From Desulfoglaeba alkanexedens ALDC (GTDB lineage: Bacteria; Desulfobacterota; Syntrophobacteria; Syntrophobacterales; DSM-9756): a stretch of 64,000 nucleotides of DNA. Position numbers and translations under genes: made by a program. Under the pieces are notes generated by a model. That model searched no databases. It was not told the DNA's origin and saw nothing but the letters and a program-made list of their open reading frames with translations. Within the stretch, counting starts at the first letter, position 1; every line of letters begins with the position of its first letter. Where the stretch lies: positions 310,001-374,000 of the forward strand of contig NZ_CP040098.1 in assembly GCF_005377625.1 (NCBI RefSeq), written 5' to 3'. Of this stretch, positions 1 to 14,005 are shown in pieces.

Positions 1-306
1 CATCCATTCGATGGCCCGCGTCGGCTGGATCCGATCCTTGCGCCACCACTCCAAGTCGAAAATATGGTCGAGCTGTTCCACGCGGGCCATGGCCAGGAGG
101 GGGAGCGCATCGTCGGGCCCGATTTCTTTGACCGTAAGATAGAAATCCTGCGCCGGGAGCGCCGCCGCCACCGCTTCCCCGTCCTTTCGGCCGAGAAGCA
201 GGTTCATGCGTTCCCGGGCGGGAAGCACCATCAGATGGCGCGAAACCTCGCGAGGTTCCGCCTTCTCCAACCACTTGGCACCGAAGTCGATGATATTTTG
301 ATCCAT
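1..306 (-). CDS. DUF6178-like protein, N-terminal part (runs off the left edge)
   Basis: Minus-strand reading frame open from an ATG at 306 to the window edge, 102 codons with no stop. The protein begins MDQNIIDFGAKWLEKAEPRE and continues with LMVLPARERMNLLLGRKDGE and an acidic/aromatic stretch ending HIFDLEWWRKDRIQPTRAIEW. I recall this layout from the DUF6178 family, proteins of roughly 500 residues common in Desulfobacterota and of unknown function; that match is from memory. An AGGAGG lies 14 bases before the ATG, a long spacing, but no better in-frame start is visible. It is divergent from smsC. No signal peptide or membrane segment is visible in the part present. Confidence 0.55.
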   Translation of the reverse strand, partial: MDQNIIDFGAKWLEKAEPREVSRHLMVLPARERMNLLLGRKDGEAVAAALPAQDFYLTVKEIGPDDALPLLAMARVEQLDHIFDLEWWRKDRIQPTRAIEWM

Positions 307-498
307 GAGCTTTCGTGAAGCCTCCTGCAAACGACAGGGAACCCGCTTTCTTATTTCGCGGACCGAGCAAGAAGTCAAGATCGGAGCCATCGGAGCGGAA
401 GGCTTGGAAACACTTGCTTAAAAGCCGGCAAATGCTTAGGTAAGAGGCACGACGGCGGCGCTCGGATGTACGAACCAACACCACTCCAGGAGACCGAA

Positions 499-1266
499 AT
501 GCTTCTCATCGAAGACCTTCAAGTGGAACTGGCCGGAAACGTGATCCTCAAACATATCGATCTCGAGATCAAGCCGGGGGAAACCCATATACTTTTCGGA
601 CCCAACGGCTCGGGAAAGACTTCGCTCCTCATGACCATCATGGGTTACCCGCAGTACAAGGTGATCGCGGGGCGGATCGTCTTCAGAGGGGTGGACATCA
701 CGGACAAACCCATCAACGAGCGCGCCCGGATGGGAATCGGCATGGCTTACCAGCGCCCGCCCACCATCCACGGCCTCAAGACGCGCCAGATGGTTCAGAT
801 CTGCGCCGGGCGGCCGGACCTACCGGTGGATGAGCTGGCCCGCAAGGTGAACTTCAGCGACTTCTTGGAACGGGATATCAACGCCGGCTTTTCGGGAGGC
901 GAAATCAAGCGATCCGAACTCCTTCAGCTGATGGCCCAGAACCCGGACCTCCTGCTCTTCGACGAACCGGAATCGGGGGTGGACCTCGAAAACATCTCGC
1001 TCGTTGGAAACACCATCGCTCAGCTGCTGGAAAAGGAATTCGTGCCTTCCCAGGAAAAGACCATGCTCCAGAAGAAGCGCGAACGGCGTAAGATGGGACT
1101 CATCATCACCCACACCGGCTACGTACTCAACTACCTGAACGCCGACAAGGGCCAGGTGCTCTATAATGGGATTTTGAGCTGTGCGGACAATCCCCGCGAC
1201 ATTCTGAAATGCATCAGCGAACTGGGATACGAGGAGTGTGTGCGATGTACGCTCGCGAGCAACTGA
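499..1266 (+). CDS. smsC: SUF-like minimal system ATPase SmsC (SufC family)
   Basis: 255-residue ABC ATPase of the SufC type, the energy-coupling subunit of an Fe-S cluster scaffold in the cytoplasm. Visible are Walker A GPNGSGKTS, Q-loop YQRPPT, signature FSGGEIKRSELLQ, Walker B LLLFDEPESGVD and a switch histidine in IITHTG. The signature with EIKRSE and the DEPESGVD box are typical of SufC rather than transport ATPases. The ATG at 499 is chosen over one at 466 because CCAGGAGACC lies just before it. The gene overlaps the next by 22 bases. With only a SufBD-like partner and no sufS, sufU or sufE nearby, the pair fits the two-gene SMS system of anaerobes; sufC is the alternative name. Confidence 0.9.
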   Translation: MLLIEDLQVELAGNVILKHIDLEIKPGETHILFGPNGSGKTSLLMTIMGYPQYKVIAGRIVFRGVDITDKPINERARMGIGMAYQRPPTIHGLKTRQMVQICAGRPDLPVDELARKVNFSDFLERDINAGFSGGEIKRSELLQLMAQNPDLLLFDEPESGVDLENISLVGNTIAQLLEKEFVPSQEKTMLQKKRERRKMGLIITHTGYVLNYLNADKGQVLYNGILSCADNPRDILKCISELGYEECVRCTLASN

Positions 1267-2471
1267 GGGAGAAAGCCCTGAAGGCGGTGAACAAGGCGGC
1301 CGCTATCGGACCCGACGTTCATCTGGAAGAATTCGACAAGCGACCGGTGGCGCATGAATACATGCCCGACGAGAAACTGCGGATGCTTCCCGCCGAAGAG
1401 CAGAAGCGGCTGATCATGGCGGGACTCGACCTTTCCGAAAAGGAACGGGCCGGGACCTATTTTCAGAAGGACAGCACCGTGGTTCACTGCAAGTCGAAGC
1501 AAAAGGGCATCGAGGTCATGTCCATCCGCAAGGCCCTGGAAAGCCACGAGTGGATCTACGACTACTACTGGAAACTGATGGCGGTGGATACAGACAAGTA
1601 CACGGCGGCCGCCGAGTTGGACCTTCACGACGGCTACGTGATCCGGGCCCTTCCTGGGGAAAAGTCCGTCTATCCTGTCCAGGCGTGCCTTTATATCGAC
1701 AAGGAAGGCCTGCAGCAAAACGTCCACAACATCATCATCGCGGAAGAAGACTCGGAGCTCCACATCATCACGGGGTGCTCCACGTCGCCTCACACCCGGA
1801 GGGCCGCCCACGTGGGCATTTCCGAGTTCTTCGTCAAGAAGAACGCCAAGTTGACCTTCACCATGATTCACAACTGGGCCGAAGAGATGATCGTGCGCCC
1901 CCGATCGGTGGCCCAGGTGGAAGAAGGCGGGCTGTTCATCAACAATTACATCTGCATGAGGCCCGTTCGATCTTTGCAGATGTATCCCACCACGCACCTG
2001 GTGGGAGAAAATGCCGTGGCCCGGTTTTACAGCATCATCGTGGGGAGTCCGGAGACCGAATACGACGTGGGCGCCCGCGTTTACCTGAAAAAACCCGGTT
2101 CCCGCGCCGAGGTCGTGGCTCGAACCATCAGCAACGGCGGAAAGATCATCTCCCGAGGACATCTCATCGGCCAAGTGCCCGACATCAAGGCTCACCTGGA
2201 ATGTAAAGGGCTGATCCTGAACGGAGGCCTCATCCACGCCGTGCCGGAACTGGAAGGGCACGCAGACGGCGTGGAGATGTCCCACGAAGCGGCGGTGGGA
2301 AAGATCGCGCAGGAAGAGATCATGTACCTCATGTCGCGGGGGCTGAGCGAAGACGAAGCCACTTCCACTATCGTCCGCGGCTTCCTGAGCGTGGACATTC
2401 CGGGGCTTCCACCGCAGCTCAAAGCCGAAATCGACCGCGCCATCGAGGCGAGCGACAAGGACGTGATGTAG
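1245..2471 (+). CDS. smsB: SUF-like minimal system scaffold SmsB (SufB/SufD family)
   Basis: 408-residue SufB/SufD-family protein, predicted to form the Fe-S assembly scaffold with SmsC. The central part shows the family's beta-helix style (EDSELHIITGCSTSPH, VGISEFFVKKNAKLTFTMIHNW), followed by SRGHLIGQVPDIKAHLECKG and the C-terminal helical region MSHEAAVGKIAQEEIMYLMSRGLSEDEA, which carries the MSRG signature. It is somewhat shorter than SufB (about 470-490). The start at 1245 has GAGGAG eight bases upstream and lies inside the end of smsC, indicating translational coupling. A longer frame from 1209 is less likely. Only one SufBD paralogue is present, so it probably acts as a homodimer; that is inferred from the known SMS type. 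Confidence 0.88.
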   Translation: MYAREQLREKALKAVNKAAAIGPDVHLEEFDKRPVAHEYMPDEKLRMLPAEEQKRLIMAGLDLSEKERAGTYFQKDSTVVHCKSKQKGIEVMSIRKALESHEWIYDYYWKLMAVDTDKYTAAAELDLHDGYVIRALPGEKSVYPVQACLYIDKEGLQQNVHNIIIAEEDSELHIITGCSTSPHTRRAAHVGISEFFVKKNAKLTFTMIHNWAEEMIVRPRSVAQVEEGGLFINNYICMRPVRSLQMYPTTHLVGENAVARFYSIIVGSPETEYDVGARVYLKKPGSRAEVVARTISNGGKIISRGHLIGQVPDIKAHLECKGLILNGGLIHAVPELEGHADGVEMSHEAAVGKIAQEEIMYLMSRGLSEDEATSTIVRGFLSVDIPGLPPQLKAEIDRAIEASDKDVM

Positions 2472-2600
2472 CAGCCGTGCCCGCGTTCGCCCATGCGTTC
2501 TGCTTCGAGGGCACGAAAACCCGCGGGGCGACTGGGACGCTCCGGCCCGGTTCCGAGACGGGGCCTGGGTCTACCAGGGACAAAAGAAAGGGCGGAAGAT

Positions 2601-2918
2601 ATGAAAAGTCTATTGGCCGTATGGCTGGCTTTGATAATGGTGAGCGGGTGCTTCACCCAAGCGGTCCGAGCGGAAGAGCAAGAAGCGCCCTACGAGGTGC
2701 CCGCGGCCGAACCGCCTTCCCCGGAACTGATGCTCGTGGATGTTTTCATCGTCCGCCCGGTGGGGCTGGCGGCCTGCGCCGTGGGCCTCCTTGGGAGCAT
2801 CGTGGCCATGCCCTTCGCCTCCCTATCGGGAAACGATCGGGAGGTGAGCCGCCGGCTCATCGCGGAGCCGTTCGCCTACACCTTCACCCGGCCGGTGGGT
2901 CACTTCGAACGCAAGTGA
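2601..2918 (+). CDS. small predicted lipoprotein of unknown function
   Basis: 105 residues. An N-terminal hydrophobic segment (LLAVWLALIMVSGC) ends in a lipobox-like VSGC with Cys17, so export and lipid attachment are plausible. The mature part has a conserved-looking core: VDVFIVRPVGLAACAVGLLG, IVAMPFASLSGN and a C-terminal AYTFTRPVGHFERK. I know similar small proteins (RPxGL..., PF..L.GN..., YTF.RP.G) as conserved hypotheticals in many Proteobacteria, with no assigned role. The ATG at 2601 has GGCGGAAGAT just before it; a longer frame from 2493 would remove the signal peptide from the N terminus. It follows smsB by 129 bases and may share its transcript. Confidence 0.75.
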   Translation: MKSLLAVWLALIMVSGCFTQAVRAEEQEAPYEVPAAEPPSPELMLVDVFIVRPVGLAACAVGLLGSIVAMPFASLSGNDREVSRRLIAEPFAYTFTRPVGHFERK

Positions 2919-2985
2919 AAGGGGCGGACCGGCGACTTTTCCGACCAACCGCCACGCCTTCAGCAAACGAGACCTCTGCACTACG

Positions 2986-3022
2986 CCGCAACCGGCGGGC
3001 CCAACGCCCCCGCCGGTTGCGG
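2986..3022. terminator. strong hairpin between convergent genes, possible bidirectional terminator
   Basis: A perfect 14-base inverted repeat, CCGCAACCGGCGGG (2986-2999) and its complement (3009-3022), with a 9-base loop. It lies between the 3' ends of the lipoprotein gene and the minus-strand fusion oxidoreductase. No U-tract follows on either strand, so intrinsic termination is not proven; it could instead protect the 3' ends. Confidence 0.5.
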
Positions 3023-3041
3023 GCCCAATGCCCGCCTGCGG

Positions 3042-6000
3042 CTACCCCGCGGTACCGAAGACCCTGACCTTCTTCCAAAGCGACTCCGCCCGGAAGAAAT
3101 CCTTCCATTCCGGCACGACGCTTCCCATCTCTTCCAGAATCGCCTCACGCCCCTTTGGAAACGCCAGGCCCTGGGCCGCCATGATGCGGGTCATCACGTC
3201 CCAGTCCGGAAGCGCTTCGCCCTCTGGAACCATGGCCTGTTCCAGCGGGAGGAGGCGCCCTTCCTGGTTGATCACGAGCCCCGGGGCTTCCCCGAACGCG
3301 GCGGCGGGCAGCACCACGTGGGCGAATTCCACGGCGGGGCCGACCACGTTGTCGACAAGAGCGATAAACTCCAATTGCTTCAGACTTTCCAGCCGAGCGC
3401 CATGGGACGCCTCGGTCAGGAACACGCTCTCCTGGACGAGAAGCCCGCGGAGCCTTCCGCTGTCGATGCCATCAATCACGCCGAACGACGCGGCTTTCGG
3501 AAGCGCCGGCACATCCCACAGTTCTCTCAGCCGTTCCAAGGCGCCCGCGTCGGACGCGGGTACGAATCCCGGCAGGCGCTCCGGGCTGACGCCGGCCAGC
3601 AGGGCGCCCAGGCCGTTCACCGTATCCAGGCACGGATACCACCCGCCGCCCAAGTCCTCTCCGGTGCACTTTCCGAAGAGCGCCAGGCCCGCCACGGCCT
3701 TGAAAAAGGCCTCAGCATCGCCGGGACTCATGGACCTGGCCGGCGGTACGGCGAAAACCACCGCAAACGTTTTCCACTGCTGCAGCATCTTCCGGAAGGC
3801 CTCGTAGGCTTCCGCCGGAATCCAGGCTTCCTTCGGATCGAACGGTTCGCCTTTGAGCCAACCGCGAACCTGGGCGACCGCCGCCGGATCCAGCCCTTCG
3901 CTCCGCCCTTCCAGTGCCCAGGCCAAGTCGGCCATCAGCTTGGGCCATACCTCCGGTGGCGCCACCAGCGACCGGAACGCAAAGGGCGTCAACCCGTCGG
4001 CTGCCTCACCGATCTGCAGCAGCGGCACATTCCGACGCCTCACGGTTCGTCGGATGAGGGTGGCCACAACGGGTGAGCGTTTTTCCAGTTCGTCTCCGAT
4101 CACGAGGAAGCCTTCGGCGTGTTCCAGGTCGGTCATGGGCCTGGACATGGCTCGCACACCCAGGATCTGCCGGCTGAGTTCCACCAACGCCTCCGCGGCG
4201 GCTCGACCAGGGAAATCCACCAGGTGCGTCCCGAAGCCCAGGCGCATCCATTTTTCCAGCAGGTACAGCGATTCCAGAGAAGCGGCCGGCGACCCCACGG
4301 CCCCCACGGCCTCCGCGCCGTAGCGGTCCGCCACGCTCTTCAACCCCTGGATCACCGTCTCCACGGCCTTCCCCCAGGACACCGGGACCAGCGATCCGTT
4401 CTCCCTGACCAGAGGCCGGGTGATCCGATGGGTCTTCCAGTGCATGTCGTAGGACCGAAAGCGGCCGCGCTTGCACGTGGACGCCCGGCCGGGCGGCGCG
4501 TCTCTTCCGTCGGCGATCCAGACCAAGCGGTTTCCTTTGACCTTCAGTTCCAGCTCGCAGCCGCATCCGCAGTGGATGCAATGAGTGAAAACCCCCCTCC
4601 ACTCGAGGCGTTCCACGGCGCGCCCCTGCCGGCGTTCCATGAGTGCCCCCGTGGGGCACAGGTCCACGCAAAGCCCGCAGGAGACGCAGCGGTCGTTGAA
4701 CCTCGGCCAGTCCTTGAAGTCAATGGCGTAGGAACACTGGAGCGTATCGCAAGCCACCTTGCAGCGTTCACAGCGAATGCACTTGTTGGGATCCAGGGCG
4801 ATCTCCGGGTGCGTGTCCACAGCGGCCACCCTCTGGAAGTGAATCTTCTTGCTCGGCTGATTTCTCCAGTCCACCTGGAACTCGTTCATGAGTTCCCGGA
4901 GCCGGCAGTCGAAGGCCGCCGAACAGCCGCACTCCAGGCAGCGTTCGGCTTCCCGTCGGGCCTGTTCCTCGCTCAGCCCCAGTTCCACTTCCATGAAACT
5001 GCCGACCCGCTGCCCCACCTGGACTTCCGGCATGCGTTCCCTCGGAATGGTCTTGTAGGCTCCGAAAGGTTCCCGATCCACGTGGTCCAGGTCGCCCTTG
5101 CTGATATTGAAGTGAAGCGGTTCCGGCTGGACTTCGTTCACCTGGAAATACCGGTTCAGAGAATAGGCCGCCTTACGGCCGTCGGCCAGAGCAGCCACCA
5201 CGGTCATGGGACCCCGGAAGAGATCGCCGCCTACGAAGACCATTTCATGGCCCGTATGCATGCTTCTCGGATCGCCTCCGATGGTGCTCCAGCGCGTTAC
5301 CGGAAGCTCCGCCATGGCAGGATCCTGATCCGGAAGAAGCACTTCGGGAAACTGCCCGATGGCGCTGATCACTTGGTCCACGTCGAGGACGGCCTCGGAT
5401 CCCTCGATGGGTACCGGACGGCGCCTTCCGCCGGCGTCCGGTTCACCCAGTTCCATACGCAGAAATTCCAGCTGCTGAACCTTACCGCCTTCGCCGATGA
5501 CCCGGGTGGGCGCCGCAAGGAGTTGAATGTCCACCCCCTCCGCTTCCGCCGCCTCGATTTCTTCGTGGCTCGCCGGCATTTCCTTTCGGGACCGCCGGTA
5601 CAGGATAGTCACCTTTTCGGCACCCATCCTCAGGCACGTGCGGGCCGCATCGATGGCCACGTTGCCTCCGCCGATCACCACCACGCGCCGGCCCCCTTTA
5701 ACCGGCCTTCCGGCAGCCACATCTTCCAGGAAGGTGACCCCGCTAACCACGCCCTCCAGATCTTCCCCCACGATCCCCAACTTCCGGGTACCCCAGGCGC
5801 CGATGGCGAGAAAGATCGCTTCGTAGCCTTCCTTCTTCAGGTCGTCCAGGGTGAAGTCCTTACCCCAGCGGACCCCCGTCTTCACCTCCACGCCCAGGCT
5901 CAAGATCCCGTCGATCTCCCAGTCCAGAACTTTCTTCGGAAGCCGGTATTCGGGAATCCCGTAGCGGAGCATGCCCCCGAGCTTGTCCCGGGCTTCAAAG

Positions 6001-6665
6001 ATCGTCACGCCGTGACCCAACGCTCTCAGGTAATAGGCGGCGCTCAACCCCGCCGGCCCGCCGCCCACGATGGCCACGTGCCGACCCGTGCCGGGCGGCA
6101 CCGTGGGCAGGATCCGCTCCCCGCTTCTCATTTCGAAGTCGGCCAGGAAACGCTTGCAGTGATTGATGTTGACCGCTTCGTCTACCAGGAGCCTGCGGCA
6201 CTGCCCTTCGCAGGGGTGAGGGCAAACGCGGCCGATGGTCGCGGGCATGGGTATCTTTTCCTTGATGAGCCGAACCGCCTCCTGGTATTCCCCGTGGCGG
6301 ATGAGCGCCAGGTAGCCCTGGATGTCCACGTTGGCCGGGCAGGTGAGCGAACAGGGCGCTACGCAGTCGCCGTAATGCGTGTCCAGGATAAGCTCCAGCA
6401 GGAGCTTCCGGGTCTTATCCAGGTTCGCGCCGGTCGTTGTCACGTCCATGCCTTCCACCACGGGCGTGCTGCACGCCGCCTTGAACTGCTGCTCGCCCGC
6501 CACCGCCACCACGCACAGACGGCAATTCTCCAGGGGTTTGAGAAGCGGGCTGTAGCAGAGGGTGGGGATGTAGACACCTTCCCTGCGAGCGACATCGAGA
6601 ATCGTGCTTCCCTCGGGAGCCTGAACCGTTTTGCCGTCAAGCCGAATGGTCACCGTCTTTTCCAT
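3042..6665 (-). CDS. fusion oxidoreductase: 2Fe-2S ferredoxin, GltD-like FAD/NAD(P) module, 2x4Fe-4S, molybdopterin-type domain
   Basis: 1207 residues, cytoplasmic. Domains in order: a NuoG-type 2Fe-2S domain (Cys37, 48, 51, 65); a glutamate-synthase beta-like module with N-terminal Fe-S cysteines (about 101-156), a first dinucleotide fold VAIVGGGPAGLSAA (198-210) and a second VVVIGGGNVAIDAA (328-341); extra cysteines near 576-587; a ferredoxin-like pair CIRCERCKVAC (629-639) and CVSCGLCVDLCP (660-671); then a bis-MGD enzyme-like domain opening with a 4Fe-4S site (Cys696, 699, 703, 731). Where formate dehydrogenases carry the catalytic Sec/Cys, this protein reads LVDFPGRAAAEAL (815-827), with no cysteine. 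It therefore probably moves electrons between NAD(P)H, Fe-S centres and a partner rather than reducing a substrate at molybdenum. GGAGGAACTCT precedes the ATG. Substrate unknown. Confidence 0.85.
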   Translation of the reverse strand: MEKTVTIRLDGKTVQAPEGSTILDVARREGVYIPTLCYSPLLKPLENCRLCVVAVAGEQQFKAACSTPVVEGMDVTTTGANLDKTRKLLLELILDTHYGDCVAPCSLTCPANVDIQGYLALIRHGEYQEAVRLIKEKIPMPATIGRVCPHPCEGQCRRLLVDEAVNINHCKRFLADFEMRSGERILPTVPPGTGRHVAIVGGGPAGLSAAYYLRALGHGVTIFEARDKLGGMLRYGIPEYRLPKKVLDWEIDGILSLGVEVKTGVRWGKDFTLDDLKKEGYEAIFLAIGAWGTRKLGIVGEDLEGVVSGVTFLEDVAAGRPVKGGRRVVVIGGGNVAIDAARTCLRMGAEKVTILYRRSRKEMPASHEEIEAAEAEGVDIQLLAAPTRVIGEGGKVQQLEFLRMELGEPDAGGRRRPVPIEGSEAVLDVDQVISAIGQFPEVLLPDQDPAMAELPVTRWSTIGGDPRSMHTGHEMVFVGGDLFRGPMTVVAALADGRKAAYSLNRYFQVNEVQPEPLHFNISKGDLDHVDREPFGAYKTIPRERMPEVQVGQRVGSFMEVELGLSEEQARREAERCLECGCSAAFDCRLRELMNEFQVDWRNQPSKKIHFQRVAAVDTHPEIALDPNKCIRCERCKVACDTLQCSYAIDFKDWPRFNDRCVSCGLCVDLCPTGALMERRQGRAVERLEWRGVFTHCIHCGCGCELELKVKGNRLVWIADGRDAPPGRASTCKRGRFRSYDMHWKTHRITRPLVRENGSLVPVSWGKAVETVIQGLKSVADRYGAEAVGAVGSPAASLESLYLLEKWMRLGFGTHLVDFPGRAAAEALVELSRQILGVRAMSRPMTDLEHAEGFLVIGDELEKRSPVVATLIRRTVRRRNVPLLQIGEAADGLTPFAFRSLVAPPEVWPKLMADLAWALEGRSEGLDPAAVAQVRGWLKGEPFDPKEAWIPAEAYEAFRKMLQQWKTFAVVFAVPPARSMSPGDAEAFFKAVAGLALFGKCTGEDLGGGWYPCLDTVNGLGALLAGVSPERLPGFVPASDAGALERLRELWDVPALPKAASFGVIDGIDSGRLRGLLVQESVFLTEASHGARLESLKQLEFIALVDNVVGPAVEFAHVVLPAAAFGEAPGLVINQEGRLLPLEQAMVPEGEALPDWDVMTRIMAAQGLAFPKGREAILEEMGSVVPEWKDFFRAESLWKKVRVFGTAG

Positions 6666-7018
6666 AGAGTTCCTCCGCCGGTTTCTTCGGGTATGGGCCC
6701 TGCCCGTTCACCACCTATTCCCAGGGCTGCGGCCGCTTCCAACGTGCAACCGGCCGCCGCAGGACAAGACTCCTTCACGACCGCTGATGGCCTCCCAGGG
6801 CTGCTTCGGAAGGGCCGAGTGTCGCCGGAGGTTGACAAGAGATTGAACCGCAGCAAGGAAAGATAAATTCCGAGAACAGAGGGAACGTTCAAGGGTGCCG
6901 GGCGCTCAAGGCTGACAGCTGAAGGGTGCGACCAAGGGAGTCGGAGTTTCGAAAAAAGCCACCGCCTGGACTCATCCCAGTCGGTTTGCGCCGGATCGCT
7001 TCAGGGGGTTCCGGTGCG
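6666..7018. other. 353-base intergenic region, no gene recognised
   Basis: Lies between the 5' end of the fusion oxidoreductase and the 3' end of the receiver gene, both on the minus strand, so it should hold the oxidoreductase promoter. I see no convincing -35/-10 pair, hairpin or short gene. A 12-base direct repeat TCCCAGGGCTGC occurs twice near 6718 and 6795 and may be chance. Confidence 0.4.
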
Positions 7019-7423
7019 TCATCCGCCGGTTCCCCGCTGAAGGAGCAGTTCGATGTTGTGCCGGAGCGCCTGGGGATCCACCGGTTTTTCCATGAAGATG
7101 TCGGCCGCGATCCAATCCATGTCTTCCTCTACCGTCCGCGTGTAACCCTTTTCGGTTTCCGGCTGGGCGGAAACGATGATGATGGGCAGCTTCCGAAGGG
7201 CGTCGTCCTGGCGGATCTTCACCGCGAAGCGCAACCCTTCGTCCATGGTGGCCATCATGATGTCCAGAACGAGCAGATCGGGTTTTTCCGATTCGATGAG
7301 GCGATGGCCGTCCTGAGTGTTGCTGGCGGTAGCCACATCATAGCCGAAGCGCTTCAAAATGGCACTGGTGATCTCCAGGAAACTGGGATCGTCGTCGATG
7401 ATCACTATCTTCTTCCCGCTCAT
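7019..7423 (-). CDS. single-domain response regulator (CheY-like receiver)
   Basis: 134 residues, a receiver domain only. The acidic pocket is DDDP near residues 10-13, the phospho-acceptor is the aspartate in LLVLDIMM near residue 54, and the switch residues are the serine in IIVSAQ and the lysine in MEKPV. No DNA-binding or enzymatic output domain follows, so the signal must pass to another protein or feed back on the kinase. The gene starts directly after the stop of the adjacent histidine kinase, making the two a cognate pair and operon. Confidence 0.9.
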   Translation of the reverse strand: MSGKKIVIIDDDPSFLEITSAILKRFGYDVATASNTQDGHRLIESEKPDLLVLDIMMATMDEGLRFAVKIRQDDALRKLPIIIVSAQPETEKGYTRTVEEDMDWIAADIFMEKPVDPQALRHNIELLLQRGTGG

Positions 7424-9487
7424 TCATTCTCCCTTCCCTTCTGAATTGTACCACTCATCTCTTTCCCCAATCCGAGGCAGCTCGATGATGAATCGTACCC
7501 CCCGGCCGGATTCGCTTTCGACCCGGATCCGCCCTCCATGGCGCTCCACGATCGTTCTGGTGATGAAAAGACCCAGGCCTGTTCCCCGCGTGGCGGACCT
7601 GCGCGATGACGGCAATCGCTGGAACCTTCGGAAAAGTCTGTCTCGATGTTCCTGAGGGATGCCGGGGCCGCTGTTCCAGACTTCCAGCCGGCACCGTTCG
7701 CCGGCCGCCGCCCCGGACACTTCGATTATTCCACCCTTCTCCCCGTATTTCAACGCGTTGCTCAAAAGGTTGGTAAAAACACTCCGGAACAGCTCGGGAT
7801 CCACCCTCCATTCCAAATCTTCGGCAAGTCGGACCTGCACGCGCATGTCCTGTTCGCGGACCGCGGCCACCAGGCCGGCGAGCACCGGTTCCACCACTTC
7901 CGAACGGATCCGGCATCGGCGAGGCCGAACCGGCAGCTCGTCCTTCTCGATCCGCGAAAGATCCAGGTAATGCCGGATCATTTCCATGGACTGGTCCAAG
8001 TTCCGGCAAATAGCTTCCACCATGGCCGACTGTTCCGCGGACAGCTCCCCGAAAATCTTTTGGCGCAGCGCGTTGGCACTCATGATACTGTTGGCGATGG
8101 GAGATTTGAGTTCATGGGTGACGAAGCTGAGCATTTCCATGTAGTGTCGGTTCAGCCGCTCCAGGTTGCGATTAGCCTCGTTCAGGCGTTCGTTGGCCTC
8201 AACCAGGGCGTCCATATGCTCCTTCAATTCCGTCAGATCGTGAAAGTAACCGACGATCGCGAAGTCTTCCCGGCCTTCGTACAGAATGGTGGCCGAAAGG
8301 CGAATGGGGATGGTTCGGCCGTCCTTGGTGCGCACTTCCGTGTTGTAGTCCACCAGGATGCCCGGCCCCCCGTGGCCGTCGCCCAGAATGGCCTGCTTGA
8401 TGGCTTGAGCTTCCCCCGGGGGGTAAATGTCCTGGACGTTCAGCTGGTAAAGCGCTTCCGCCCGCGAGTAACCCAGCAGCCTCTGGGCCCCTCCATTGTA
8501 AAGGATGATCTTTCCCGAACGGTCGTTTGCCATGATACCGTCCGGGCAGGCCTCCAGCAGGCGTTCTTCGAACTCGTAGCGTTGCCGGAGCTTTTCCTGG
8601 TAGAGTCGGACTTCGGTGGCCATGAACTGGAAGGCGAACAGCAGCCGCATGAGTTCGTCGCTGCCCGACCTCCGGTTCAGTGCGCAGTCCCGACAATAGT
8701 CATAAGGGATCGAAACCGCACCCAGCTCCGACTGGGAGTCCGCCTCCAGAAGAGGGCAGAAGCCCGGCGTTTGATTGATCCGGGCCAAGGCGGGTTCATG
8801 GAGCTCCTTCCGGCAAAGCGGTGTTTCCTGGATTTCGCTTGCCACCTCGTCCAGGTCCCCGCGGGCGAGAGACCGTGTCATGCGAAGCAGCCGATCCACG
8901 GGCCGGGTGATGAGGCCCGAAAACCAGCGCGAAAGGAAAAAGCCTGCACACAGGACCATGGCCGTGAGCGCCCCCAGCAGGCGCACCAGCCGCATCGAAA
9001 GATCGTCCAAGAAGGCGGTTCGTACCCCAACGCGAACCAGGACCCGTTTCCGGCCGGATCCTTCCGGCAGCAAGATACGCGCCTCACAAATTCTCCCCGC
9101 CGGCGTCTTGAAAATGGAGAAGTCGCCTTCACCCCGGCGGTGAGGATCCACGGACGCCGCCTCATGGCCCGCTTTTTCGGCTCGAAACAGCACCTCCCCT
9201 TCCCGTTCGGGATCGCGCCCTTCCACGTATACCAAGTTCGGAATCAGCCGGACCAGTTCCCCGGCGCGCTCGACCCATGGCCCGGACCCGGGTTCCCCTG
9301 GAAGCCGTTCCACTTCCGCCCCCACTACTTCAGCCACTCGCGCCGCCTCAACCCGCGCGTCCCGCTCCACAGAAGGCAGCACGCCGAAGCGAATCCCTCC
9401 CCATCCGGCCGACACGACCAGCACGATCATCCCAAGGGTGACCAGGGTGATTTTTGTGCGGAAATTCAGCCGGTTCACAAATCCCAT
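7424..9487 (-). CDS. membrane sensor histidine kinase with PAS domain and a cysteine-rich linker
   Basis: 687 residues from ATG 9487. A TM segment (about 12-32) is followed by an extracytoplasmic sensor region (about 40-160), a second TM segment (about 168-186), a HAMP region (SGLITRPVDRLLRM), a linker, a PAS domain (about 305-420, PDGIMANDRSGKIILYN), a coiled linker, HisKA with His458 in FVTHELKSP, and HATPase with N-box LLSNALKYG and G-box GTGLGLF. The linker between HAMP and PAS holds Cys225, His230, Cys244, Cys265 and Cys268 (the last two as CRDC), unusual for this position and suggestive of a metal or Fe-S site. A TTG at 9541 would add 18 residues before the first TM. The gene is coupled to the receiver gene downstream. 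Confidence 0.87.
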   Translation of the reverse strand: MGFVNRLNFRTKITLVTLGMIVLVVSAGWGGIRFGVLPSVERDARVEAARVAEVVGAEVERLPGEPGSGPWVERAGELVRLIPNLVYVEGRDPEREGEVLFRAEKAGHEAASVDPHRRGEGDFSIFKTPAGRICEARILLPEGSGRKRVLVRVGVRTAFLDDLSMRLVRLLGALTAMVLCAGFFLSRWFSGLITRPVDRLLRMTRSLARGDLDEVASEIQETPLCRKELHEPALARINQTPGFCPLLEADSQSELGAVSIPYDYCRDCALNRRSGSDELMRLLFAFQFMATEVRLYQEKLRQRYEFEERLLEACPDGIMANDRSGKIILYNGGAQRLLGYSRAEALYQLNVQDIYPPGEAQAIKQAILGDGHGGPGILVDYNTEVRTKDGRTIPIRLSATILYEGREDFAIVGYFHDLTELKEHMDALVEANERLNEANRNLERLNRHYMEMLSFVTHELKSPIANSIMSANALRQKIFGELSAEQSAMVEAICRNLDQSMEMIRHYLDLSRIEKDELPVRPRRCRIRSEVVEPVLAGLVAAVREQDMRVQVRLAEDLEWRVDPELFRSVFTNLLSNALKYGEKGGIIEVSGAAAGERCRLEVWNSGPGIPQEHRDRLFRRFQRLPSSRRSATRGTGLGLFITRTIVERHGGRIRVESESGRGVRFIIELPRIGERDEWYNSEGKGE

Positions 9488-9805
9488 GTTGAATATCCGC
9501 GGTTTCGAGCGAGGGCATATAAAGGATGGTCGCATGCACAAGACGGCGGCCTAAGCGCGATGATTGCGTTCTTTTTAGCACAAACCGGCCTTCCCGTAAT
9601 CGCGCTTTTTCACCCGCTCAGAAGGTTCGGAATCCACAGTGTGAACGGCGGCCATAAGGTGATAATCAAAAGGTCGATCAGCAGGACCGCCGCAGACGGG
9701 AACATTCCATCGCGGCCTCCCGACCGGACCGCGTGCCGCCCGAAACGATCGAATCCTTCCGCCGCCGCCCGCCACACCAGGCGCCGAACCCTTTATCGCC
9801 GCCGT
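9488..9805. other. 318-base intergenic region, no gene recognised
   Basis: Between the histidine kinase 5' end and the stop codon of the TIM-barrel gene. It is G+C-rich with many CGG/CCG runs near 9755-9800. I see no convincing promoter, hairpin or RNA gene; the promoter of the kinase operon should lie here. Confidence 0.35.
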
Positions 9806-10663
9806 TCAAGCCGCCTGCCCGGACTCCCCGGGAAGAAAACCCTCCTTCCTTAAGTACACCGCCGACCCCAGGACCAGTTCCTCCGCGTCCCGATCCGCCG
9901 ATTCCATCTCCACAGTCACGTATCCTTCGTAACCCGAAGCCAGGACCGAACGAAGAAACCGGGGAATATCCAGGACACCTTCACCGAGTTGCGTGCGCCG
10001 GTGTTCACTTCCTTCCACCAGGTCGCCCAGGTGGATCTGACCCGCATACGGCTTCAGCCGATCCCACGCCTCGCACGGATCTTCCCCCGCAAAGGCCAGG
10101 TGCGCGGTGCCGAAGTTCACCCCGAGGGCCTCGTCGCCATCGAATTCCTTGAGGAGCGCCAGCATCTGTTCGCTGTTTTCCACAAGCATCTCAGGGGTCG
10201 GTTCGACGAGCACCCTCACCGCCAACTTCCTGGCCAGAGGCAGCACGCGGTGGAGGTCGGCCACGAACAGCCGCCAGGCTTCCCGCTGGTTCATGCTTTG
10301 AGGGATCTTGCCGCCTGGAAAGATGGATATGGAAGGAACCCCGAGAGCGGCGGCCAGCCGCAGGCAGTCCAGGGTATAGCGGATACGGAGTTCCCGCTCC
10401 TTCCAGTCTTCCTCAATCCATGACGGGTGGTGCCCGTCTCCCAGCGCCGAAACCCTCCCCGCTCCCAAGCCGACGACCTTTAGCTTTCGCCGTTCAAGAC
10501 ATTCATGCAGCGTGGAAATCTCGGAAGCCTTGAAGTCCTGAGGAAAGACGTGGGGGCGGTCGGCCATGAGTTCCATCGCTTCGAACCCCGCCTTCGCCAC
10601 GCAATCGACCGCTTCCTTAAGCGAGCGCATTTTGAAGATGGACGTGCTGTACGCGAATTTCAT
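9806..10663 (-). CDS. sugar phosphate isomerase/epimerase-like TIM-barrel protein
   Basis: 285 residues of the AP-endonuclease-2/xylose-isomerase-like barrel family. Visible are the N-terminal strand MKFAYSTSIFKMRSL, AGFEAMELMADRPH, an acidic strand end in RVLVEPTPEMLVEN, VNFGTAHLAFAGEDP, GQIHLGDLVEGSEH and the C-terminal YEGYVTVEMESAD. These Glu, His and Asp positions are the usual metal ligands. The ATG at 10663 matches the family N terminus; an open frame upstream to 10762 belongs to the preceding gene's region. It follows the acyl-CoA synthetase by 28 bases, so both are probably one transcript. The substrate cannot be told from sequence. Confidence 0.78.
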   Translation of the reverse strand: MKFAYSTSIFKMRSLKEAVDCVAKAGFEAMELMADRPHVFPQDFKASEISTLHECLERRKLKVVGLGAGRVSALGDGHHPSWIEEDWKERELRIRYTLDCLRLAAALGVPSISIFPGGKIPQSMNQREAWRLFVADLHRVLPLARKLAVRVLVEPTPEMLVENSEQMLALLKEFDGDEALGVNFGTAHLAFAGEDPCEAWDRLKPYAGQIHLGDLVEGSEHRRTQLGEGVLDIPRFLRSVLASGYEGYVTVEMESADRDAEELVLGSAVYLRKEGFLPGESGQAA

Positions 10664-10691
10664 GGGTTTCTCTTGCACCCCTTTCTGAAGT

Positions 10692-12776
10692 TTACGGGCG
10701 TTTTTCCGAAGACGTCGACGGCTGTCGCCCCTTTTTGACCGCCCGCCAGTCCACGGCTTCACACCCGTTTTGGCGGATGAAAACCGGGTTCAGGTCCAAT
10801 TCGCGGATTTCTGGAAAGTCGTTGAGGATCCAGGAAACGCGGCTGACCAGGTCGGCCATGGCTTCCTGGTCCAGCGGCGGCCGCCCTCTCACGCCCTGCA
10901 TCAGGGCCGAGCCGCGGCATTCCTCCAGTAACCCCCGGGCGTCTTCCCGGTCGAACGGCGCCACCCGAATGGCGGTTTCACGGAACACTTCAACGTGGAT
11001 CCCCCCCAGCCCGGTGACCACCACGGGGCCGAACTGATCGTCCTGTCGGCCTCCCACCAGCCACTCCAGTCCCGGTTCGACCTGCTTCTGCAAAAGCACG
11101 GCGGGCCCGAAACGTTCGAGGGAGCGGTACGCCCGTTCCAGCTGTGAAACGCCGGAAAGGTTCATCACGACCCCGCCCGCATCCGTTTTGTGAACCACAT
11201 GGGTTTCGGCCGTCTTGAGCACCACCGGGAAGCCCATCTCCCGAGACGCTTCGAGGAGCGCTTCCAAGCCGCGAACCATTCTCCACGGCACAAGGGGAAT
11301 TCCATAAGCTTCGAGCACGCCCGCCAGGACGTCCGCCGGAAGGAGCCCTTCGCCGGTCGCCTCAACGAACTGCTTGGCCCGCGGAACGTCAATTCCAGAG
11401 GGACGTTCTCGGGCGAAGACCATCGGTGGCCCGTCCCGGCGGTCCCTGTTCAAAGCCAGGGCACGAAGGGCTTCCCGGGGATCCGTCCAGATGGGAAAGG
11501 TCATCGACCGGCGGCTGACCGTCGTTTCGCCGACCGTTGAAAAGACGCAGACGACCACGGGTTTTCCGTGGGTCGCCATGAGTTCGCCCAGGCTACGGAT
11601 CAGGCGCCGGGACTCTTCCGTATCGAACAGCCCCCAATAATTGTAAATAAAGAGCACCGCGTCGATGTCCGCCCTCGTCAGCGTCTGTTCCGCCAGTGAT
11701 CTGTAGAGTTCCAGGTCGAAGATATCTCCCATGTCCAGGGGGTTATGAAACCGGATCACCCCGGCCCTGGCCCGGCGGGATATCATCTGAATCAATTCAT
11801 CCGGAAACGGCGGCAGCTCGAAGCCAAATTCCTCGGCCGCGTCCGCCGCCATCACGGCATGCCCGCCGGAACGCGAAATCACGGCGAGCCTTCGGCCCCG
11901 CATGGGCGGCAGAAGAAAGCCTTTCACGGCGTTCATCGCATCGTCCTGCTCAAAGACCCGCGTGATGCCGCACTGACGGAAGGCGGCCTCCACCACCTTG
12001 TCGTCCGAAGAAAGTGAAGCCGAGTGGGACAGGGCGATCACCGCTCCAGCTCCGCCCCAGTTGGACTTGTGAACTACGAAGGGCTTGGAAGAACGGGCCG
12101 CGATCTCTATCAACCGCCGCCCTTGGGCGATGCCTTCCAGATAACAGAAAATAACCTCCGTTTCAGGATCGGACGTGAGATACTCCAGGAGGTCGTTTTC
12201 GTTCACGTTGAACTTGTTTCCGATGCTCGCGAACTTACCGAATCCCACGTTTTCCGCGGCGCACAGGTTGATCATCGTGGCGCCGACCCCCCCGCTTTGC
12301 GAAACCAGCGCGACCCGGCCCAGCGGCGCTTCCGCCCGCATGGGCATGAAAGGCACCGCCAGCCCGTTTTTTCGATGGATCACCCCGATGCAGTTGGGAC
12401 CGATCATGCGCATCTGATAACGGTCGAGGATTTCCTGGATTTGCTGTTCCAAGGAAAGCCGCTCCTCACCCAATTCACGGAATCCGGCCGACTCAACGAT
12501 CACCCTACGAATGCCCCTTTGCCCGCATTGTCGGAGCACCTCCGGCACCACCTGGGCCGGAACCAGCACCGCCGCCAGATCCACCGGCTCGGGCAGCTCC
12601 AGGACGTCCCGGTAAATCCTGTGCCCGGCCAACACGCCCCCTTTCGGCCCCACCAGGTAGATCACGCCCTGGTACTGGAATTCCATGAGGTTGAACACGA
12701 TCGCCCGACCCAAGTTTGTGGGAGAAGAGGAAACGCCGACCACCGCAACGCTTTCGGCATTGAAGAAGTGCTCCAT
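10692..12776 (-). CDS. acyl-CoA synthetase (ADP-forming), single-chain
   Basis: 694 residues, cytoplasmic. Interconverts an acyl-CoA plus ADP and phosphate with acid, CoA and ATP, an energy-saving step in fermenters and syntrophs. An N-terminal CoA-binding Rossmann domain (AVVGVSSSPTNLGRA) is followed by succinyl-CoA-ligase-like domains with MIGPNCIGV, ALVSQSGGVG and the phospho-histidine region ALSHSASL. The C-terminal third is an ATP-grasp domain (GFPVVLKTAETHVVHKTDAG, LLQKQVEPGLEWLVGG, ELDLNPVF). Alpha and beta parts are fused in one chain, as in bacterial Acs/Pat-like forms without an acetyltransferase domain. ATG 12776 is preceded by CAGGAGAGACTGAAC. The acyl substrate (acetyl, propionyl, aryl) is not predictable. 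Confidence 0.87.
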   Translation of the reverse strand: MEHFFNAESVAVVGVSSSPTNLGRAIVFNLMEFQYQGVIYLVGPKGGVLAGHRIYRDVLELPEPVDLAAVLVPAQVVPEVLRQCGQRGIRRVIVESAGFRELGEERLSLEQQIQEILDRYQMRMIGPNCIGVIHRKNGLAVPFMPMRAEAPLGRVALVSQSGGVGATMINLCAAENVGFGKFASIGNKFNVNENDLLEYLTSDPETEVIFCYLEGIAQGRRLIEIAARSSKPFVVHKSNWGGAGAVIALSHSASLSSDDKVVEAAFRQCGITRVFEQDDAMNAVKGFLLPPMRGRRLAVISRSGGHAVMAADAAEEFGFELPPFPDELIQMISRRARAGVIRFHNPLDMGDIFDLELYRSLAEQTLTRADIDAVLFIYNYWGLFDTEESRRLIRSLGELMATHGKPVVVCVFSTVGETTVSRRSMTFPIWTDPREALRALALNRDRRDGPPMVFARERPSGIDVPRAKQFVEATGEGLLPADVLAGVLEAYGIPLVPWRMVRGLEALLEASREMGFPVVLKTAETHVVHKTDAGGVVMNLSGVSQLERAYRSLERFGPAVLLQKQVEPGLEWLVGGRQDDQFGPVVVTGLGGIHVEVFRETAIRVAPFDREDARGLLEECRGSALMQGVRGRPPLDQEAMADLVSRVSWILNDFPEIRELDLNPVFIRQNGCEAVDWRAVKKGRQPSTSSEKRP

Positions 12777-12991
12777 GTTCAGTCTCTCCTGGTTTTCCGG
12801 TGCAACAGTCAAGCCGGTTCCGCGGTGTTTTCGGGGACCGACGGACGGCGCCGCTTCGAACACCGCGTCCACTATGGACTCCGTCGCGGTACGTCTCAAG
12901 CGGAAAGCCGGAAAGGCTTCCGATGCAGGATGCCACAACTTTCCGTGTGCGTGAAGTTTGATTTGGGACCACCCGGCAGCGCACAATCACC

Positions 12992-13020
12992 TTGACACGC
13001 AACGGCCCCGCCGTTACAAG
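12992..13020 (+). promoter_or_regulatory. candidate promoter for fabD
   Basis: A perfect -35 TTGACA at 12992-12997 and a -10-like TACAAG at 13015-13020, spacer 17 bases, ending about 38 bases before the fabD ATG. The -10 is a four-of-six match. Confidence 0.5.
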
Positions 13021-13058
13021 CGGGCGAGTTTCAGCGCTCTCCCTTGGAGGCATGAGGT

Positions 13059-13985
13059 ATGCCTATGAAACAATGGGTCTTTCTATTTCCCGGCCAGGGA
13101 TCCCAGTACGTGGGCATGGGACGGGACTTCCACGACACCTACCGTGAAGTTCAGGAACTTTTCGAAAGAGCCGAAGATATCCTTCAAATGCAAATTCGGA
13201 GGCTCTGCTTCGAGGGTCCGGAAGACGTTCTAACCCAGACGGAAAATGTCCAGCCCGCCATCACGGTGGTCAACCTGGCCTGCCTGACAGTCCTCGGGCT
13301 GCACGGCATCAGCCCTGCAGCGGCCGCCGGCCACAGCCTGGGCGAATACAGCGCGCTTCATGCCGCGGGCGTTTTGAGCCTCGACGATACGCTCCAGCTG
13401 GTACGCTGGCGAGGCCGTTTCATGCAGGAAGCCGCCGTGGAAACACCGGGAGCCATGGCGGCCGTCATGGATCTGGACGAGAGGAAGTTACAAGAAGTCT
13501 GCCGCCTCTGCGACGTGGAAGTGGCCAACATCAACTGCCCGGACCAAACGATCATCACCGGGACCACGGAAGCGGTAGACCGGGCGATAACCGCCAGCCA
13601 GGAAGCAGGGGCCAGGAAATGCATACAGCTCAACGTGAGCGGCCCCTGGCACAGCCGCTGCATGGAAGCCGCCCGCCGGAAGTTCGAACTCGTCGTCCGC
13701 AGGTGCGTTTTCGAAGACCCGAAAATCCCCGTGGTCAGCAACGTGGATGCAACGCCGCTCAACGGCGCTCACGAAGCCCCCGAGAAGCTGATCCGCCAAT
13801 TGTGCAGCTCGGTCCTTTGGAAACATTCCATGGAATGGTTCCTGGCGAACGGCTACCGCTATTTTGTGGAAGTGGGCCCGAAGAAGGTGCTGCGAGGGCT
13901 CATGCGAAAGATCGACCGGTCCGTGGAAGTGCTCAACGTGGAAGATACGGCCACCCTCGCATCCTTCCTCCAAGCCAACCGCTGA
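13059..13985 (+). CDS. fabD: malonyl-CoA:acyl carrier protein transacylase
   Basis: 308 residues, usual length for FabD. It moves the malonyl group from CoA to ACP in fatty acid synthesis, in the cytoplasm. Seen are the oxyanion-loop motif LFPGQGSQYVGMG (9-21), the nucleophile elbow GHSLGEYSAL with Ser93, the substrate arginine in RWRGRFMQEA, and the catalytic His in GPWHSRCM. GGAGG lies eight bases before the ATG at 13059; an ATG at 13065 is possible. The gene stands alone here, without other fab genes, and is divergent from the acyl-CoA synthetase. Confidence 0.95.
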   Translation: MPMKQWVFLFPGQGSQYVGMGRDFHDTYREVQELFERAEDILQMQIRRLCFEGPEDVLTQTENVQPAITVVNLACLTVLGLHGISPAAAAGHSLGEYSALHAAGVLSLDDTLQLVRWRGRFMQEAAVETPGAMAAVMDLDERKLQEVCRLCDVEVANINCPDQTIITGTTEAVDRAITASQEAGARKCIQLNVSGPWHSRCMEAARRKFELVVRRCVFEDPKIPVVSNVDATPLNGAHEAPEKLIRQLCSSVLWKHSMEWFLANGYRYFVEVGPKKVLRGLMRKIDRSVEVLNVEDTATLASFLQANR

Positions 13986-14005
13986 AAATCAAAACGACGT
14001 CTCCG

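Follow-up and report, generated by a model that had tools for sequence, protein, structure and literature searches.

A StnC-like fusion protein without StnAB in Desulfoglaeba alkanexedens as a possible NADPH inlet for complex I

In the 64,000-nt stretch of the Desulfoglaeba alkanexedens ALDC genome analysed here (contig NZ_CP040098.1, positions 310,001 to 374,000; hereafter the window), one gene encodes a GltD-NuoG/FdhF fusion protein, P0001, which we interpret as a StnC-like NADPH dehydrogenase without StnAB, most likely feeding a complex I of the type whose operon encodes EF', a remnant of NuoF, and standing under two-component control; to this reading as a whole we give an even chance. The molybdopterin-type (Mo) domain of P0001 is a non-catalytic relic, and this loss of Mo function is well supported. 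The working mode of the protein is fairly clear, and its partner is the uncertain part. In fact the architecture is already known from StnC, or NfnA, of the Stn-type transhydrogenases, and it is the context that is new, namely a conserved kinase-regulator context, and cousins of P0001 located within or next to complex I operons that bear EF' but no nuoEFG. Complex I may have in P0001 an NADPH entry point that has gone unrecognised.

Loss of the molybdopterin active site

The gene of P0001 lies in a single-contig genome of 3.37 Mb, at C1:313045-316665. An earlier note on this DNA, made by a model, had placed it at 3042-6665 of the window; the interval indeed holds one open reading frame of 1207 aa, to which the minus strand has to be added, and no stop lies within it, in keeping with the claimed absence of an in-frame TGA. 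The Pfam matches likewise agree with the described union of a 2Fe-2S domain, a GltD-like flavin adenine dinucleotide (FAD) module, 4Fe-4S sites and a Mo-type domain in a single chain: Fer2_4 (residues 3-78), Fer4_20 (101-181), Pyr_redox_2 (196-496) and a 4Fe-4S dicluster domain (625-673) are followed in the C-terminal half by Molybdop_Fe4S4 (694-736) and Molybdopterin (747-1161). Molydop_binding (PF01568), the C-terminal domain which binds molybdopterin guanine dinucleotide (MGD), has no Pfam match in P0001, whereas it is matched in a relative of the selenocysteine (Sec) type (L215); correspondingly, 17 residues remain beyond position 1190 in P0001 against 166-175 in the Sec proteins.

The stretch LVDFPGRAAAEAL is found in P0001, where VDFPGR begins at residue 816. 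An alignment of 47 rows includes 15 rows from relatives in the phylum with an in-frame TGA read as Sec, which represent 14 different genes (L212 and L147 cover one gene), and here the Sec column falls on Ala823 of P0001; a HMMER alignment to FdhF (7qv7_S) agrees in register and again puts Ala823 at the catalytic position. The lack of a catalytic Cys or Sec, for which such an alignment had been proposed as the check, is thus confirmed twice over, and a formate dehydrogenase with a hidden Sec or Cys is ruled out; of the features of a formate dehydrogenase alpha subunit, both the catalytic Sec/Cys and PF01568 are missing. Moreover, column 823 holds Cys in none of the 32 non-Sec rows. Within the close clade of P0001 (ten rows) it drifts, being Ala (three), Thr (two), Ser (two), Val, Gln or Pro, and it is Ser in the eight rows of two cousin families, f6 and f5, and Leu or Met in six Stn-type rows. 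The His that follows Sec in the Sec forms is lost in the orthologues of P0001.

The same tendency is seen in the regional conservation. In the close clade the mean pairwise identity is 0.80 for the GltD module and 0.79 for the Fe-S linker, and falls to 0.40 for Mo domain II/III, whereas in the Sec clade the three regions stand at 0.55, 0.47 and 0.57; a drop in Mo domain II/III with the rest kept is the pattern predicted if catalysis is lost and structure is kept. The Mo domain of P0001 is, judging from these sequences, under relaxed constraint. Altogether, with a drifting position 823, no MGD-binding domain and a Mo domain II/III so much less conserved than the GltD module, the suggestion that the domain is a relic like that of NuoG holds well.

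Cofactor chain and predicted use of NADPH

By sequence, the best solved chains are 9bov_A (E 3e-195, 1178 aa), 8oh5_C (E 3e-177, 1172 aa) and 9n5u_A, and a fold search names 9bov as NfnABC of Caldicellulosiruptor saccharolyticus, 8oh5 as StnABC of Sporomusa ovata, and 9n5u/9n5v as NfnABC of Thermococcus sibiricus. According to the available excerpts of PMC10482914, StnC is a GltD-NuoG fusion with a catalytically inactive FdhF-like domain, its FAD is a non-bifurcating flavin while bifurcation is done by StnAB, its K170, strictly conserved across StnC sequences, is a ligand of the FAD-proximal cluster, at which NfnB has Glu, and its C114 is replaceable by Val or Ile; excerpts of PMC7483475 report that StnC produced alone binds FAD and oxidises NADPH with methyl viologen at 58 U/mg.

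P0001 keeps the parts on which such a function would depend. Its chain carries one 2Fe-2S domain and six predicted 4Fe-4S sites, two of them in the GltD module (Cys101/105/109/148/152/156) and three in the linker (Cys576/579/581/587, 629/632/635/639 and 660/663/666/670), and across the 47 rows the Fe-S Cys columns are unbroken save for C51 in a single Sec row. Lys171, equivalent to StnC K170, is conserved in the 47 rows; Arg241 corresponds to StnC R239, and Ile115 stands in place of C114. The nucleotide motifs of the GltD module, GGGPAGLS, GGGNVAIDAAR and YRRSRKEMP, are intact. Since a GltD module is present and StnC alone oxidises NADPH, P0001 likely does so by homology; the earlier view of a protein with no known substrate was too pessimistic, and that of an electron-distributing flavoprotein is supported by the StnC precedent. 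The idea that the chain itself might bifurcate finds no support, as the FAD of StnC is non-bifurcating and no StnAB-like pair adjoins the P0001 gene.

Linkage of the fusion to complex I operons

In all five of the EF' proteins scanned (EF' is 246-301 aa long), PF10589, the NuoF 4Fe-4S domain, is the only match; the flavin mononucleotide (FMN) domain PF01512, matched in intact NuoF, is found in none of these five. By phmmer, residues 91-240 of EF' align to 402-547 of a HydB-type chain, behind its FMN domain. In one genome without the fusion (L229 11463-12968) EF' carries a long tail of low complexity and no longer has the CGKC cluster motif, which L228 keeps.

In cousin families of P0001 the fusion stands at EF' operons in the position otherwise taken by NuoEFG or NuoG. 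For example in f6, whose fusions are 46-57% identical to P0001, the gene is divergent from nuoA in all 10 loci with flanking sequence, and the four operons readable to the end (L217, L218, L220 and L221) run from nuoA-D through nuoH-N to EF' without nuoE, nuoF or nuoG; L217 starts within the operon, the nuoA-C of the same genome (G044) being seen in L123, nuoK of L221 was not called, and L216 and L219, with broken or masked nuo operons, are uncounted. In another cousin family, f21 (3/3 genomes), and in L028, the operon itself contains the fusion gene, placed after nuoN-EF', and no nuoE/F-like gene stands ahead of nuoA in f21. An f5 genome (G041, L230) has nuoA-N-EF' without nuoEFG, with the fusion on another contig, while in G011 (L193), of the close clade, a nuo-EF'-G operon is directly followed by the kinase, regulator and fusion genes.

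The window genome has an EF' operon of its own (L188), with the order nuoE-F-A-B-C-D-H-J-K-L-M-N-EF'-G, nuoI not being called separately. The NuoD encoded there shares 71-72% identity with its f6 counterpart and 60-62% with the complete one of f21, compared with 44% for that of the second nuo operon in the same genome, so that this complex I belongs to the same lineage as those of f6 and f21.

In the 47-row tree, the Shimodaira-Hasegawa-like approximate likelihood ratio test (SH-aLRT) gives 100 for the close clade, 99 for its union with f5, 99 for f6 with L028, and 100 for all of these jointly, and it gives 100 for the Stn types and 99 for the Sec types. The 19-row clade holding P0001 obtains 100 both in the full-row tree and in two reduced-row check trees, one of the full length and one of residues 1-690 alone, which omit the long branches L029, L030, L198 and L199 and the near-duplicates L147, L022, L111 and L138. 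From these positions, linkage to nuo is seen in two or more separate regions of the tree, f6/L028 being one and f21 another. The placement of the P0001 clade beside the Sec forms has an SH-aLRT of only 51 at full length and 73 for residues 1-690, so that descent of the lineage from a Sec enzyme is no more than likely.

Among the 55 genomes of the class, 26 match P0001 at E 1e-170, or 27 counting a contig-end copy in G036, and full-length EF', counted from match rows extending beyond the C-terminal domain of NuoF, is found in 35. It is present in 26 of the 27 fusion genomes versus 9 of the 28 others (Fisher p 5e-7, kinship not corrected for), and the sole fusion genome without it, G045, is 62% complete. 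Among 37 genomes of the phylum outside the class, all three f21 genomes have full-length EF' and none of seven with the Stn type (f59, f25). As an exclusive marker of the fusion EF' is ruled out, being present also without it.

A working model and the points against it

In the favoured model, hydride transfer from NADPH would reduce the FAD of the GltD module, from which the electrons would leave singly via the conserved Fe-S chain toward the NuoG-like 2Fe-2S/4Fe-4S end, at which a partner would dock. The Mo domain would no longer bind a working cofactor and would serve structure or assembly, and P0001 alone should not bifurcate, because the StnAB module is missing. The most likely acceptor would be the complex I whose operon carries the FMN-less EF'; this lineage is favoured as the partner since the linkage recurs in different arrangements. 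P0001 carries the NuoG-type Fe-S set with an inert Mo-type domain, and its own kinase and regulator genes suggest that in its clade it probably serves as an alternative entry for NADPH that can be switched, with P0001 as the presumed target of this pair.

Several observations weigh against this model. The fusion lies in or beside a nuo operon in f6, f21, L028 and G011, but P0001 does not in the window genome, whose EF' operon keeps its own NuoE, NuoF and NuoG about 550 kb away, and the docking to complex I in D. alkanexedens is therefore proposed from its relatives. Within the close clade only G011, and G022 on split contigs, adjoin nuo; the lone relatives of f55 (L198/L199) adjoin neither nuo nor the kinase and regulator. 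EF' exists in the nine class genomes without the fusion mentioned above, and in seven genomes of the phylum (f15, f23) in which the Sec form alone is known here. In addition, the AlphaFold model of P0001, for which the alignment was shallow (16 rows), scores poorly across the Fe-S region (mean predicted local distance difference test score 64.5, about 30 over residues 600-745). This region being unreliable, only domain matches were used, and the whole-chain root-mean-square deviation to StnC was set aside as meaningless.

Conserved two-component genes upstream

The genes of a membrane histidine kinase and a single-domain response regulator (Table 1) abut each other, and 353 bp separate the regulator from the P0001 gene. 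The earlier note had the gene standing alone, which remains true in that no redox partner gene is adjacent, but not as regards this pair directly upstream. A check of neighbours in relatives, as had been proposed, finds the order kinase-regulator-fusion in all 12 genomes with enough sequence (the window, L021, L022, L023, L025, L026, L027, L101, L102, L103, L104 and L225); in a thirteenth, G022 (L226), the genes lie on two contig ends in a matching arrangement. L128 and L130, which begin inside the gene, were left out, as were L126 and L127, which hold shortened reading frames. The kinase is matched at E 1e-80 in 13 of the 55 class genomes, exactly these 13, which are related species and thus not 13 independent events. 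Between HAMP and PAS, C243 is kept in 10 of 11 kinases, and C262, C283 and C286 in all 11; our guess is that this region would suit a metal or Fe-S sensor. A promoter and terminator scan stayed near the level of shuffled sequence and was uninformative.

No StnA (NuoE-like) or StnB (NuoF-like) gene lies beside the fusion, among the open reading frames of window positions 1-14000 or at the loci of close relatives, and no NfnA-like gene was seen among the window frames examined at the locus. Sugar-isomerase-like, acyl-CoA-synthetase-like and SufC/SufD-like neighbours were rejected as partners; they are common only to close relatives, probably reflecting local synteny. The SufC-like ATPase and SufD-like protein (window 466-2471, plus strand) converge on the P0001 gene, and the pair is found at the same place in three Desulfacinum loci (L022, L025, L026). 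In the orthologue of Desulfacinum hydrothermale the reading frame changes close to the N-terminus (L026 10001-10222). Ahead of nuoE in the EF'-type complex I operons of L194, L195, L196 and L197 lies a second kinase paired with a single-domain response regulator.

Table 1. Features of the P0001 locus, in window coordinates
Feature	Position	Strand	Basis
StnC-like GltD-NuoG/FdhF fusion P0001, 1207 aa	3042..6665	-	open reading frame, Pfam
Residues 1-100, 2Fe-2S domain, Cys37/48/51/65	6366..6665	-	PF13510
Residues 101-510, GltD-type FAD/NADP(H) module	5136..6365	-	PF14691, PF07992
Residues 511-690, linker with predicted 4Fe-4S ligands	4596..5135	-	47-row alignment
Residues 691-745, Mo-domain 4Fe-4S site, Cys696/699/703/731	4431..4595	-	PF04879
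Residues 746-1190, molybdopterin-type domain II/III, catalytically degenerate, no MGD-binding domain after	3096..4430	-	PF00384
Ala823 codon, catalytic Sec/Cys position	4197..4199	-	alignments
Single-domain response regulator, 134 aa, no output domain	7019..7423	-	PF00072 only
Membrane histidine kinase, 705 aa, HAMP + PAS + HisKA + HATPase	7424..9541	-	domain scan
Kinase region between HAMP and PAS, conserved Cys 243, 262, 283, 286	8684..8815	-	

Alternative functions

P0001 could instead be a soluble NADPH:acceptor reductase in the style of SfrAB/NsoC, with ferredoxin or a small protein as acceptor and a kinase-regulator pair that tunes only its amount. Such a role would suit the reduction of artificial acceptors by StnC alone, the absence of an adjoining redox partner gene, and the match of a PRK12814-type NADPH oxidoreductase model to residues 3-676, which is below the cut-off of the model; SfrB is described as a related NADPH oxidoreductase in the excerpts at hand of PMC3543383 and PMC9888536. 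We consider it unlikely, as the NuoG-like part, needless in such a reductase, keeps all its ligands, and linkage to nuo is seen repeatedly (f6/L028, f21 and G011).

Another candidate role is that of StnC in a bifurcating transhydrogenase of the Stn type, the genes for StnA and StnB lying elsewhere in the genome. Though the nearest solved relatives are indeed StnC and NfnABC subunits, and the genome has NuoF-like genes elsewhere (five PF01512 matches), the NuoF genes at 225971 and 881433 sit within nuo operons, and an NfnAB-looking pair is also present (L190, judged by eye). Moreover, in the Stn-type relatives of the phylum, which make up a clade of their own (SH-aLRT 100), NuoE and NuoF lie immediately upstream, and this makes the role improbable for P0001.

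It is more doubtful still that P0001 is the putative effector or the redox input of the kinase-regulator pair, in which case the phosphorylated regulator would bind and gate it, or P0001 would report the NADPH state to the kinase. The cousins f5, f6 and f21 do without the pair and 353 bp intervene between the regulator and fusion genes, against which stand the invariant gene order in the 12 testable genomes, a regulator without an output domain and the four conserved Cys of the kinase. Finally, it is hardly credible that P0001 is an active formate dehydrogenase whose active site is of an unusual kind without Cys or Sec: the Mo-domain fold of the P0001 model is kept (Z 23-24 to FdhH) and Ser-ligated Mo enzymes exist elsewhere, but position 823 varies among A, T, S, V, Q and P in the orthologues, the following His is lost, PF01568 is absent and the Mo domain appears to be under relaxed constraint.

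Comparison with known systems

Returning to the NADPH inlet of complex I, the available excerpts of PMC11238625 state that the donor of the 11-subunit complex I is unknown and, citing Moparthi and Hagerhall 2011, that a search for one common donor protein of the NuoEFG-less complex I found in strict anaerobes failed. The conserved linkage names a concrete donor candidate in several lineages and predicts NADPH, whereby the question of the donor becomes testable; if true, a StnC-like module would be movable between a bifurcating transhydrogenase and a proton pump. A wider proposal is offered tentatively: some Desulfobacterota-type anaerobes could possess a proton-pumping NADPH:quinone oxidoreductase, in which a GltD-NuoG fusion and EF' replace NuoEFG, and in the clade of P0001 the fusion could be a second, two-component-controlled inlet exchanging with the NuoG module as an NADH/NADPH switch. 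The fusion-plus-complex I arrangement is not described in the excerpts at hand of PMC5736913, PMC4046663, PMC3543383, PMC9888536 and PMC10553843, and a limited search of the literature recognised no description of a GltD-NuoG complex I.

Compared with StnC of Sporomusa ovata (8oh5_C), P0001 is alike in length, domain order and its ligand sets for one 2Fe-2S and six 4Fe-4S clusters, in having Lys at the K170 and Arg at the R239 position, and in the inactive FdhF-like domain. It differs in having Ile for C114, in its kinase and regulator neighbours and in a weakly similar Mo domain II/III; it is thus a StnC-like fusion subunit without adjacent StnA and StnB genes, and is not assigned to an Stn complex since StnAB is missing. 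Stn-type operons (NuoE-NuoF-StnC) at L200, L202, L206, L207 and L209 are flanked by kinases and response regulators, which are unlike those of the window clade. The large subunit of NfnABC (9bov_A; 9n5u_A) is the best match in sequence and fold over nearly the whole chain, with partner subunits that are absent from the neighbourhood of P0001. NfnAB is a different case, as P0001 has Lys171 where NfnB has Glu and no NfnA-like gene is adjacent.

The single-chain Sec formate dehydrogenases of the phylum (1364-1383 aa) share the N-terminal domain order at 35-41% identity and, unlike P0001, keep Sec and PF01568, and some adjoin Wood-Ljungdahl-type genes. By eye, those at L210, L211, L212 and L215, which are GltD-FdhA enzymes with an in-frame TGA, follow MetF-like and CO dehydrogenase/acetyl-CoA synthase-like genes, which suggests a formate dehydrogenase that depends on NADPH and belongs to the Wood-Ljungdahl pathway. 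A fusion homologue of f5 (L118) is divergent, also by eye, from cooS-like (CO dehydrogenase) and cooF-like Fe-S partner genes, and the window genome has a separate formate dehydrogenase with an in-frame TGA adjoining a GltD-containing protein (L189 3669-8572).

With NuoG, P0001 has in common the 2Fe-2S and 4Fe-4S set and a non-catalytic Mo-type domain, and the fusions of f21 and L028 also share its operon position, while the inserted GltD FAD/NADP(H) module and the location outside the nuo operon in the window genome set P0001 apart. The nearest published idea, in the available part of PMC9304861, is Nuo-Bfu, a complex I with BfuABC and NADH/ferredoxin input, in which the NADH input module is likewise swapped for another entry module; here the GltD module predicts NADPH, and EF' comes without the FMN domain.

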